Under the pieces are notes generated by a model. That model did no database searches. It was not told the origin of the DNA and saw only the letters and a list, made by a program, of their open reading frames with translations. The translations under genes and the position numbers were made by a program. Below are positions 50,034 through 53,213 of a stretch of DNA of 53,486 nucleotides, one piece after another (the stretch's first letter is position 1; each line of letters opens with the position of its first letter). Source of the stretch: an uncultured Clostridia bacterium (lineage in GTDB: Bacteria > Bacillota > Clostridia > Oscillospirales > Oscillospiraceae); the NCBI GenBank assembly GCA_946412355.1, contig CAMKGX010000008.1, forward strand, positions 1 to 53,486. Direction: 5' to 3'.

Positions 50034-52313
50034 ATGATTCAGTTAATCGTCAAGCGTGACGGCCGCGTGGTGCCCTATGACCGTGAGAAGATTGCCCTTG
50101 CCGTGCTGTCCGCCATGAAGGCCGCCGCCGAGGGCACGGTGGCGGATGCCGCCCGTGTGGCCGAGTCGGTGGAGCAGGCGCTGGAGAGCCGCTGCGGCGC
50201 CGAGCCGCCCCAGATTGAGCTGATTCAGGACATGGTGGAGCAGGAGCTGATGCAGCGGGAGTTCCATTCCGCCGCCAAGGCCTATATCCTCTATCGCGCC
50301 AAGCGCACCCGGGCCCGTGAGTCCAACACCACCTTGATGAAGACCATCGACGAGATCGCCAGCAAGGACGCCCGCCTCTCCGACTTAAAGCGTGACAACG
50401 CCAACATCGACGGCAACACCGCCATGGGCGCCATGCTGCAAATCGGCTCCGCCGGCGCCAAGGCCTACAACGAGGCGTACCTCCTGCGGCCCGAGCACGC
50501 CAAGGCCCACCGGGAGGGCGACATCCACATCCACGACTTCGACTTTTACGCCCTCACCACCACCTGCACCCAGATCGACATCATCCGTCTGTTCAAGGAC
50601 GGCTTCTCCACGGGCCACGGCTTCCTGCGGGAGCCCCAGTCCATCATGAGCTACGCCGCCCTGGCCGCCATCGCCATCCAGTCCAACCAGAACGACCAGC
50701 ACGGCGGCCAGTCCATCCCCAACTTCGACTACGGCATGGCCATCGGCGTGGCCAAGACCTTCCGCAAGCAGTACGTGAAAAAGCTCACCGACATTGTGGA
50801 GGACGCCCTGGACGCCGAGGATTTGGCCGACAAGGTAAAGGACATCGTGTCCGCCACCGTGGCCGACAAGGGCGAAAACGGCCTGGAGCCCCCTGCTGGC
50901 TTTGACGACGCCGTGTCCGCCCGCCTGACCGCCCATCTGGGCATCGACGCCGCCCAGGCCGCCCATCTGGTGGCCCGTGCCCGCCGCCGTGCCGAGGCCC
51001 AGACCCAGCGGGAGACCTACCAGGCCATGGAGGGCTTCGTCCACAATCTCAACACCATGCACTCCCGCGCCGGCGCCCAGACGCCCTTCTCCTCCATCAA
51101 CTACGGCACCGACACCACCCCCGAGGGCCGCATGGTCATCCGCAATATCCTCATGGCCCTGGATGCGGGCCTGGGCCACGGCGAGACCTGCATCTTCCCC
51201 ATCCACATCTTCAAGGTCAAGGAGGGGGTCAACTATAACGAGGGCGACCCCAACTACGACCTGTTCCGCCTGAGCTGCCAGGTGTCCGCCAAACGGCTGT
51301 TCCCCAACTATGTGTTCCTGGACAGCCCCTATAACCTGCAATACTACAAGCCCGGCCATCCCGAGACCGAGGTAGCCACCATGGGCTGCCGCACCCGCGT
51401 CATCGGCAACGTCTACGACCCCTCCCAGCAGATTTCCTACTCCCGGGGCAACCTGTCCTTCACCTCCATCAACCTGCCCCGCATCGCCATCGAGAGCCAC
51501 GGCGACGAGGCGGTGTTCTACCGCAAGCTGGACGACATGCTGGAGCTGGTGGCCCAGCAGCTGATGGATCGCTTCGAGATCCAGGCCAAGAAGCGGGTGT
51601 ATAACTACCCCTTCCTCATGGGCCAGGGCGTGTGGCTGGACAGCGACAAGCTGGGCCCCTACGACGAGGTCCGTGAGGTGCTGAAGCACGGCACCCTGTC
51701 CATCGGCTTCATCGGCCTGGCCGAGACCCTGACGGCCCTCTACGGCAAAAACCACGCCCAGGACCCCGCCATCCAGGAAAAGGGCCTGGCCATCATCAGC
51801 CACATGCGCCAGTTCTGCGACGAGCGCTCCCAGCAGGTGAAGATGAACTACACCCTGCTGGCCACCCCCGCCGAGGGACTGTCCGGCCGCTTCACCCGGG
51901 TGGACCGCCGCCGCTACGGCAAGATCCCCGGCGTCACCGACCGGGAGTATTACACCAACTCCTTCCACGTCCCCGTGTGGTATCCCATCAGCGCCTTCGA
52001 TAAGATCCGCATCGAGGCCCCCTACCACGCCCTGTGCAACGCCGGCCACATCAGCTACGTGGAGCTGGACGGCGACACCGCCAAGAACGTGGAGGCCTTT
52101 GAGAGCGTGGTCCGCTGCATGCACGACGCCGGCATCGGCTACGGCTCCATCAACCACCCCGTGGACCGGGACCCCGTCTGCGGCTACGTGGGCGTCATCG
52201 GCGACGTGTGCCCCCGCTGCGGCCGCCGGGAAGGGGAGGCCGTCTCCCAAGAGCGCATGGAGGAGCTGCTGAAAAAGTTCCCCCAGATCAAGAGCTTCAT
52301 CGGAATCGAATAA
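50034..52313 (+). CDS. nrdD: Anaerobic ribonucleoside-triphosphate reductase, catalytic part, lacking the C-terminal glycyl loop
   Basis: Class III enzyme reducing NTPs to dNTPs (759 residues). Residues 1-95 are an ATP-cone regulatory domain (IVKRDGRVVPYDREKIA). The barrel shows GDIHIHDFDFYALTTTCTQIDI, GHGFLREPQSIMSYAALAAIAIQSNQNDQHGGQSIPNFDYG and HAGxQ-like segments. The C-terminus has PVDRDPVCGYVGVIGDVCPRCGR (zinc region; the first of the usual four Cys is Asp) followed by an unusual 28-residue tail. The ITGYLVG-type glycyl-radical segment that ends fused NrdD proteins is absent here and occurs in the next gene. ATG 50034 follows GAGAGAGG; the upstream in-frame ATG lies in operator box 2. 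Confidence 0.93.
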   Translation: MIQLIVKRDGRVVPYDREKIALAVLSAMKAAAEGTVADAARVAESVEQALESRCGAEPPQIELIQDMVEQELMQREFHSAAKAYILYRAKRTRARESNTTLMKTIDEIASKDARLSDLKRDNANIDGNTAMGAMLQIGSAGAKAYNEAYLLRPEHAKAHREGDIHIHDFDFYALTTTCTQIDIIRLFKDGFSTGHGFLREPQSIMSYAALAAIAIQSNQNDQHGGQSIPNFDYGMAIGVAKTFRKQYVKKLTDIVEDALDAEDLADKVKDIVSATVADKGENGLEPPAGFDDAVSARLTAHLGIDAAQAAHLVARARRRAEAQTQRETYQAMEGFVHNLNTMHSRAGAQTPFSSINYGTDTTPEGRMVIRNILMALDAGLGHGETCIFPIHIFKVKEGVNYNEGDPNYDLFRLSCQVSAKRLFPNYVFLDSPYNLQYYKPGHPETEVATMGCRTRVIGNVYDPSQQISYSRGNLSFTSINLPRIAIESHGDEAVFYRKLDDMLELVAQQLMDRFEIQAKKRVYNYPFLMGQGVWLDSDKLGPYDEVREVLKHGTLSIGFIGLAETLTALYGKNHAQDPAIQEKGLAIISHMRQFCDERSQQVKMNYTLLATPAEGLSGRFTRVDRRRYGKIPGVTDREYYTNSFHVPVWYPISAFDKIRIEAPYHALCNAGHISYVELDGDTAKNVEAFESVVRCMHDAGIGYGSINHPVDRDPVCGYVGVIGDVCPRCGRREGEAVSQERMEELLKKFPQIKSFIGIE

Positions 52314-52341
52314 TAGAAACAATCATAAGGAGGATACGACC

Positions 52342-52500
52342 ATGACAGTGGCAACGAAAGAGAGCAAAATGGGCAAGGGCGTGGGCTTTGAACGCATCCG
52401 CCGTATCACCGGCTACCTGGTGGGCACCATGGATAAGTGGAACGACGCCAAGAAGGCCGAGGAGCGTGACCGTGTCAAGCACGGCCTCAACCAGAAATGA
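52342..52500 (+). CDS. Separate NrdD glycyl-radical domain protein (52 residues)
   Basis: Small gene with AAGGAGGA (52327-52334) and ATG 52342, 28 bases after the nrdD stop. The product contains GFERIRRITGYLVGTMDKWN...AKKAEERDRVKHG, which aligns with the end of standard NrdD proteins (E. coli ...RTCGYLG...RVKHL). Gly24 in RITGY is therefore the predicted radical-carrying glycine. It has its own start site and is not reachable from nrdD by a simple frameshift. Its stop overlaps the nrdG start (ATGA). It should dock on NrdD and be activated by NrdG. Databases may list such short proteins simply as ribonucleotide reductase. Confidence 0.88.
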   Translation: MTVATKESKMGKGVGFERIRRITGYLVGTMDKWNDAKKAEERDRVKHGLNQK

Positions 52501-53012
52501 TGATCCGCATGGCCGGCGTGGCCGGTGACTCCATCGTGGACGGCCCCGGCATCCGCACCGCCTACTTCTGCCAGGGCTGCCCCCACCACTGTGAGGGCTG
52601 CCACAATCCCGAGACCTGGGATTTTGCCGGCGGCACCCCTGTGGACACGGCGGAGCTGGCGGACATCGCCCGCCGCAACCCCCTGTGCCGGGGCGTCACC
52701 TTCTCCGGCGGCGAGCCCTTCGCCCAGCCGGAGGGCTTCGCGGAGCTGGCCGACATGCTGAAACAGGACGGCTACGAGATCGCCAGCTATACCGGCTACA
52801 CCTTCGAGCAACTCCGGGACAGCGGTACCCCCGCCCAAAAGGAACTGCTGCGCCGCCTGGACGTGCTGGTCGACGGCCCCTTTGTGCTGGCGCAGCGCAG
52901 TCTGGACCTGGTGTTCCGTGGCAGCGCCAACCAGCGCATCATCGACGTGCCCCGCAGCCTGGCCTCCGGGGAAGTGGTCCCCGCCCCCAAGCGCTGGCAG
53001 GGAGAGTATTAA
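52497..53012 (+). CDS. nrdG: Anaerobic ribonucleotide reductase activating protein
   Basis: Radical SAM activase (171 residues) that generates the glycyl radical in NrdD. The cluster motif is CPHHCEGC (C-x3-C-x2-C) in the N-terminal third, preceded by VDGPGIRTAYFCQGC, with FSGGEPF as the SAM-binding GGE. ATG 52497 overlaps the stop of the small glycyl-domain gene by 4 bases; a second ATG follows immediately. Tight coupling suggests the activase and its small substrate protein are produced in step. Confidence 0.95.
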   Translation: MMIRMAGVAGDSIVDGPGIRTAYFCQGCPHHCEGCHNPETWDFAGGTPVDTAELADIARRNPLCRGVTFSGGEPFAQPEGFAELADMLKQDGYEIASYTGYTFEQLRDSGTPAQKELLRRLDVLVDGPFVLAQRSLDLVFRGSANQRIIDVPRSLASGEVVPAPKRWQGEY

Positions 53013-53015
53013 CAC

Positions 53016-53052
53016 AAAGCCTGCTTTTGGCTCGGCCAAAAGCAGGCTTTAT
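53016..53052 (+). terminator. Terminator after the nrd operon
   Basis: Perfect 16-bp stem (53016-53031 with 53035-53050) and a short loop, followed by TTTATCTC. Confidence 0.88.
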
Positions 53053-53159
53053 CTCGCGCCCACCGGGCACCATAATGCCGCCGCAGGCGGCAAATTATGC
53101 GCTGCGCGCAAATCATGGAGCGCAGCGAGAAATCATGCCGCGAAGCGGCAATTCATCGC
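53053..53159. repeat. Degenerate 18-22-nt tandem repeat with GC hairpins
   Basis: Four or five successive units, each a GC-rich, often self-complementary head followed by an AATTATG/AAATCATG/AATTCATC tail: 53078-53099, 53100-53117, 53118-53137 and 53138-53157, with a related partial unit before. No gene is seen here. Confidence 0.7.
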
Positions 53160-53160
53160 A

Positions 53161-53197
53161 AAAAAGAAGTACGCCTCAGCGGCGTACTTCTTTTTTA
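53161..53197. terminator. Bidirectional terminator-like hairpin
   Basis: 16-bp perfect stem (53161-53176 with 53182-53197) with A run on one side and T run on the other. Confidence 0.85.
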
Positions 53198-53213
53198 GCA
53201 TAATGCAATCCTA

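Follow-up and report, generated by a model that had tools for sequence, protein, structure and literature searches.

Class III ribonucleotide reductases (RNRs) described in the literature carry, in the sections accessible to us, the radical glycine on the catalytic chain. The window analysed here (the whole stretch of 53,486 nucleotides, from an uncultured Clostridia bacterium) involves an nrdD gene whose product ends before this element, and a neighbouring gene encodes a 52-residue protein that resembles it. The locus raises the question whether a class III RNR can function with its glycyl-radical loop as a separate protein. Sequence homology, recurrence of the arrangement, selection and genomes with the split enzyme as the only RNR catalytic subunit found make this reading well supported, and we consider it highly likely that the locus encodes a two-subunit class III RNR composed of a NrdD large chain, a 52-residue glycyl-radical protein and NrdG. 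The features of the locus are the following:

50034..52313, + strand: nrdD large subunit, 759 aa, with ATP-cone (residues 5-92) and NRDD barrel to zinc region (residues 121-733)
51387..51389, + strand: codon of Cys452 (MGCR), aligned with Cys416 of P. copri NrdD (8p23)
52179..52220, + strand: predicted zinc region CGYVGVIGDVCPRC (Cys716, Cys726, Cys729); P. copri NrdD has an equivalent region
52227..52310, + strand: 28-residue tail after CGR, which stands where the glycyl-radical loop would be and is modelled with one helix (739-748)
52327..52333, + strand: Shine-Dalgarno sequence AAGGAGG of the small gene, 8 nt 5' of the ATG
52342..52500, + strand: gene of the small glycyl-radical subunit, 52 aa, ATG start; residues 16-47 correspond to NRDD 533-562
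52411..52413, + strand: codon of Gly24, the predicted radical glycine (RRITGYLVG), aligned with the P. copri radical glycine
52497..53012, + strand: nrdG, radical-SAM activase, 171 aa, with a 4-nt overlap with the small gene

The original prediction held that the large nrdD product ends in its zinc region and a 28-residue tail that is devoid of a glycyl-radical motif. This description was correct: the protein spans positions 1-531 of the 562 positions of Pfam NRDD (PF13597, 2.3e-184), where the match stops, and no match of its tail to the radical loop was found. Thus, the NrdD barrel, the ATP-cone and the radical cysteine as hallmarks of class III RNRs (NrdD, PF13597/TIGR02487) are present, but the C-terminal glycyl-radical loop is missing from this chain. 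Cys452 is invariant across 46 split large subunits and also across 50 split and fused rows; the gene is intact and all residues that are invariant in the 46 split large subunits are kept. Structural alignments with fused P. copri NrdD (8p23, 8p2s) indicated 42-45% identity, and the two systems are alike in ATP-cone, barrel, MGCR cysteine, zinc region and RITGYLVG loop. However, the radical loop and the zinc region of the P. copri enzyme form one C-terminal domain on a single chain (PMC11226230, according to the accessible text), whereas in the window they are cut apart. Since the zinc region is retained on the large chain, the cut falls between the zinc site and the radical loop. Tails of 28 or 29 residues were observed at 35 of the 54 split loci in the 81-locus set introduced below. 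As a separate observation, a radical-loop-like tail motif (GYxGD..EE.DR.PNP) recurs at the ends of several large subunits (L085, L113, L231, L235, L236, L238), and the tail of this type in L236 gave no convincing match in Pfam models or PDB chains.

NRDD positions 533-562 are found in the small protein (1.2e-8, which passes the family cut-off), and the large and small proteins represent a complementary partition of this family. NRDD was its sole match at E-values up to 1, and the Gly_radical domain (PF01228) of the pyruvate formate-lyase (PFL) type was not detected. Residues 16-47 align with residues 707-738 of P. copri NrdD (chain 8p23_A), and with the chain offset seen in the alignment of the large subunit to 8p23, Gly24 falls on Gly711. 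In the accessible part of the structural work (PMC11226230), Gly711 is the radical glycine and Cys416 the cysteine beside it. The RITGYLVG segment had been expected to match the C-terminus of fused NrdD enzymes, and this alignment confirms it. Gly24 is invariant in 27 aligned small proteins, with the motif having been selected for by the scan itself. Since Gly24 aligns with the P. copri radical glycine and no tail glycine is invariant in the 46 split large subunits, it is the best candidate for the radical glycine as judged from the alignments. The large and small open reading frames lie in different frames with 28 nt between them. The ribosome site and the 4-base nrdG overlap claimed for the small gene are both seen, and the nrdG product scored 136.6 bits with TIGR02491 (NrdG) at a cut-off of 126.1.

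In the proposed enzyme, the large NrdD would provide ATP-cone, barrel, substrate and allosteric sites, the thiyl-radical cysteine and the zinc region, and the 52-residue protein would contribute the glycyl-radical loop and a C-terminal arm in trans. NrdG would place the radical on Gly24 of the small protein, the loop of which would enter the barrel of the large subunit next to Cys452. During each turnover the radical would move from Gly24 to Cys452, on to the ribose and back. We infer the radical site, the docking, the activation by the window's NrdG, co-transcription, coupled translation and benefits such as replacement of an oxygen-cut piece. An AF2 model of the read-through relative L047, calculated from a shallow alignment, left the small part unplaced (pLDDT about 30). 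A precedent for action in trans is the E. coli PflB-G734A mutant, which is unable to hold the radical but makes formate in vivo with GrcA (PMC12338860, accessible text). The arrangement suggests that the oxygen-sensitive radical piece can be provided independently of the large chain and perhaps also exchanged. Swap-out of oxygen-damaged radical subunits is, by analogy, plausible and becomes more so because free-standing copies are present in other genomes and in phages.

When the genomes of 84,980 species were scanned with exact peptide patterns of the small protein, at least 555 stretches were confirmed. The best 80 of these were kept and constitute, together with the window, the 81-locus set. 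This set involves 54 split loci, 15 fused loci, nine stand-alone frames of more than 90 aa and three small frames, the last two groups being without NrdD in the DNA fetched around the locus. Split means that a loop-less NrdD is located upstream; L049 has only a remnant of it, and a few others are interrupted by a contig end. Since the split arrangement recurs in 53 other loci (including L049 with its large-gene remnant), it is not due to chance. The source records of the split loci, mostly MAGs, are named as Oscillospiraceae, Lachnospiraceae, Butyricicoccaceae, Acutalibacteraceae, Peptococcaceae, Erysipelotrichaceae and others. At the 54 split loci the gap between the large and the small gene varies from 0 to 483 nt (median 43), and the frame relations 0, 1 and 2 occur 18, 20 and 16 times. 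The original prediction had proposed to survey the order nrdD, small gene, nrdG in relatives; nrdG lies not more than 150 nt from the small gene at 44 of the 54 split loci. Shine-Dalgarno-like sequences precede the small genes listed for the 81-locus set, but the start-picking script favoured such starts. Two loci deserve separate mention: in L054 (2926-3556) one loop-less nrdD is followed by two tandem small radical genes, and in L049 (3790-4655) the small gene and nrdG are kept, the large subunit is a short remnant and the genome (G130) has two fused NrdD matches.

Among 120 genomes of the window's family, at least three have complete large and small genes in split form (the window's genome G000, G033, G049), and a further one (G062) has them at a contig edge. 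In G033 the large subunit first appeared without a small partner; the small gene was then located (L219). In the window's order, 25 of 147 genomes carry a free-standing frame whose match to the small-protein profile begins in its first six positions, a count that leaves out the orphan-type G321. For 15 of the other 24 genomes the regions were fetched, and in all 15 a loop-less large NrdD adjoins the small gene; the fetched DNA of 12 of them had a nrdG match (L225 is the contig of L054). The other fetched regions were split in G033 and G062 and fused in G337, and those from G401 were two additional copies of the orphan type. Of 149 genomes drawn from across the phylum, only that of the window showed the split type, and ten others had short frames of 85-102 aa, which are orphan-like by length. 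Because of this result the distribution must be called patchy: the split type is recurrent, yet concentrated in the window's order and some Bacilli. A plasmid search yielded 28 matching records. A quick tree of 91 NrdD cores was built without the loop region; it has some long branches and places the window together with 14 further split rows. The fused and split states need six changes on this tree, at least five of which are forced by well supported branches. Thus, the two states interconvert or arose repeatedly; the tree fits both repeated fission and re-fusion, which cannot be told apart on this basis.

Purifying selection acts on the small gene. For its 31-codon core we obtained a pN/pS of 0.13 at a pS of 0.86 (54 loci); synonymous sites are near saturation. 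Between the window and L050 there are 10 synonymous and no non-synonymous differences, and between the window and L051 nine and none. Since the loci were chosen by exact peptide patterns, motif conservation is partly built in, also in this selection test. The original view of the small gene as functional and not a break agrees with the 54 of 81 loci split alike, with all three frame relations and with this selection.

We searched 48 genomes for RNRs, 43 of which have the split enzyme (G130 as a remnant only); most of them are MAGs of unstated completeness. No other NrdD match was found in 26 of the 43 split genomes, and in 21 of the 43 neither another NrdD nor a class I or II large subunit was found. 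The other 22 had a second RNR match of some kind. PF02867 was detected in eight of the 48 genomes (three times weakly) versus 11 of 14 control genomes. G135 has its large gene spread over two contigs, and the pieces of G143 were read through an in-frame stop. The 21 genomes with the split enzyme as only RNR catalytic subunit found include that of an isolate, Massiliimalia timonensis (L075, G144). Because the split enzyme is the only RNR found in such genomes, it is very probable that some living bacteria obtain their deoxynucleotides from it. Besides the split operon, the window's genome (G000; 2.06 Mb, completeness 96.5%) encodes a full-length fused NrdD of 724 aa with the loop RRTCGYIGTQFWNQGRTQEI:

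G000:C18:26953-29323 (L001): second class III RNR operon, in which the gene of the fused NrdD (724 aa) precedes an nrdG of its own

No class I or II large subunit was found in G000, which leaves the split operon as one of two class III enzymes, and the small-protein profile found no further copy there. The one other genome of the window's genus that was searched (G036) has one NrdD match, which is full length, and no split NrdD. The small protein had been predicted to be obligatory, and a second complete nrdD in the genome, together with a dispensable small gene, had been named as an observation against this. The first half of this, a second complete nrdD with its own nrdG, is indeed present in the window's genome, so the small gene may or may not be dispensable in this organism; in 21 of the 43 split genomes the split enzyme is the sole RNR catalytic subunit found.

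The fused NrdD in the window's genome leads to another explanation, according to which the small protein is a spare part for another NrdD (as YfiD/GrcA is for PFL), and the split operon would be a secondary product or in decay. Other genomes do encode glycyl-radical proteins that stand alone next to an intact NrdD, and L049 retains the small gene and nrdG although its large subunit is a remnant. However, the fused enzyme of the window's genome has a very different loop (RRTCGYIGTQFWNQGRTQEI), the large gene of the window is intact with the residues invariant in 46 split large subunits present, and 21 of the 43 split genomes offer no other RNR found that might be repaired. We therefore regard this explanation as improbable. 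Even less probable is that the large protein bears its own radical glycine, either Gly717 (VCGYVG) or a tail glycine, and that the small protein is an accessory. The GYxGD motif of some split large-subunit tails (L085, L113, L235, L236, L238 and others) would fit this idea, but the window's tail lacks GYxGD, neither this tail nor that of L236 matches the radical domain, and none of the tail glycines that follow CGR is invariant among the 46 split large subunits. Gly717, the alternative site named at the outset, is located in the zinc region that is common to fused enzymes; it is similarly conserved in an alignment that includes them, and in these enzymes the radical glycine follows later in the chain.

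The fused relatives (15 of 81 loci) would be compatible with an ordinary fused nrdD that was interrupted by a sequencing or assembly error or has recently become a pseudogene. For this reading, the different frames, the small gene's own Shine-Dalgarno sequence, a 28-residue tail unlike the loop and the recurrence in 53 other loci (one a remnant), including isolates, at a pN/pS of 0.13 leave practically no probability. The recurrence, the tail and the selection rule out the break or frameshift reading. We also rejected read-through of an in-frame stop to a fused product: with frame relations of 18/20/16 for 0/1/2 and gaps of 0 to 483 nt, such mixed frames and variable gaps mean that read-through is no general mechanism. 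The last alternative concerns why the split exists and is compatible with the two-chain reading. Here, a two-piece enzyme works and the split brought no benefit (neutral fission), for which the at least five forced fused/split changes (quick tree, long branches) speak; free phage copies and extra copies (tandem in L054, three in G401) suggest, on the other side, that a mobile radical piece has a use of its own. We consider neutral fission possible but rather doubtful. The two-chain enzyme remains our preferred reading.

Related radical proteins exist apart from split operons. At nine loci (L067, L073, L074, L089, L090, L094, L096, L103, L106) an N-terminal region is combined with the RNR radical loop, and orphan-type proteins were also noticed at L122, L124, L126, L128, L130, L132 and L135. 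The N-terminal region gave no convincing Pfam match in the two proteins scanned (L074, L128). All five genomes of this type that were searched (G163-G167) have a NrdD with its own radical loop elsewhere (four full length, one cut by a contig end). In the order survey, eight of 11 genomes with orphan-length short frames also have a long one, as sorted by frame length; the frames of five of these eight were read. For 11 genomes with orphan and NrdD, the mean loop identity was 0.849 for the own versus 0.797 for other partners (permutation 0.007); this value was 0.08 without G217, in which orphan and NrdD have the altered loop GYLS in common, and 0.17 without G217 and G404, which makes the co-variation weak. 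The orphan proteins are candidate RNR spare parts.

The best 80 of 242 viral loci comprised 66 with a frame but no NrdD match in the locus, 10 fused and four split ones. Of the 66 frames, 39 are shorter than 90 aa from stop to stop and 27 are longer. These free viral radical genes (66 of L138-L216; for instance L142:3001-3123, L149:3001-3129 and L156:3001-3120) often encode about 45-60 aa, and several lie near lysis genes. In 50 of 50 whole viral contigs searched (4.3-94.6 kb, possibly fragments) the radical piece was the only NRDD match, three of these matches being under the cut-off. Among 20 neighbour proteins from six viral contigs, endolysin was found in five of six, terminase in L142, integrase in L156 and L162 and a tail fibre in L156. 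When 73 of 108 neighbour ORFs were scanned, endolysins were the commonest families (top family 7 of 73). The viral versions are under similar selection, with a pN/pS of 0.135 over 53 distinct cores from motif-chosen loci; five of the 66 loci lacked a full core and were excluded. The cultured Eggerthella phage EL753P1 (L217:3676-7131) encodes a loop-less NrdD that is interrupted at its radical-cysteine loop by an intein-like insert. A small radical gene follows 364 nt downstream, and in the record its frame breaks off inside the motif. In L166 and L178 the open frame stops inside the radical motif. There is about an even chance that gut and rumen Bacillota and their phages share exchangeable RNR radical parts, which would serve as obligate subunit, as orphan spare and as free phage versions that complete or repair the host reductase. 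If true, these parts would be the RNR counterpart of YfiD and T4 Y06I.

E. coli YfiD/GrcA and phage T4 Y06I are small glycyl-radical proteins that act in trans with an activase and a larger enzyme (PMC8683613, PMC12338860; accessible sections). Their partner PFL has its own radical domain, whereas the window's small protein matches NRDD and its operon partner, unlike that of GrcA, is without a radical loop; the genomes of the orphans G163-G167 do have a loop-bearing NrdD. The predicted role of the small protein is GrcA-like, yet it is no member of the GrcA family. NrdJa/NrdJb of Pseudomonas aeruginosa is an RNR catalytic chain distributed over two genes, but it belongs to class II (PMC9669993, accessible text). 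According to the available sections of one phage survey (PMC3653736), nrdD occurs in pieces in six phage cases, that of Aeromonas phage phiAS4 without known cause, and most phage RNR splits are tied to introns, inteins or homing endonucleases. These phage genes share with the window a nrdD in pieces, and a cut at the radical loop is possible there too.

In the accessible open-licence literature (PMC) we found no description of a class III RNR whose radical loop is a separate protein; subscription journals could hold one. The parts are known, and the two-chain arrangement is, within these sources, undescribed. Family surveys can overlook such small radical proteins, since one of them dropped sequences under 400 residues (PMC9531940, available text). 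Andorfer et al. (2021) stated, in the accessible part of their paper, that spare parts have been shown for PFL only and that other glycyl radical enzymes may have them too (PMC8683613). The split genes make this idea directly testable for RNR. With a natural enzyme in two pieces, labelling, titration, mutation and exchange could be directed at the radical subunit alone, which is relevant to activation, half-site behaviour and oxygen damage.

Short GC-rich repeat units were noticed by eye in the intergenic stretch that follows nrdG (window positions 53040-53210). The gene beyond these repeats lies on the - strand and presumably corresponds to the end of an enolase.
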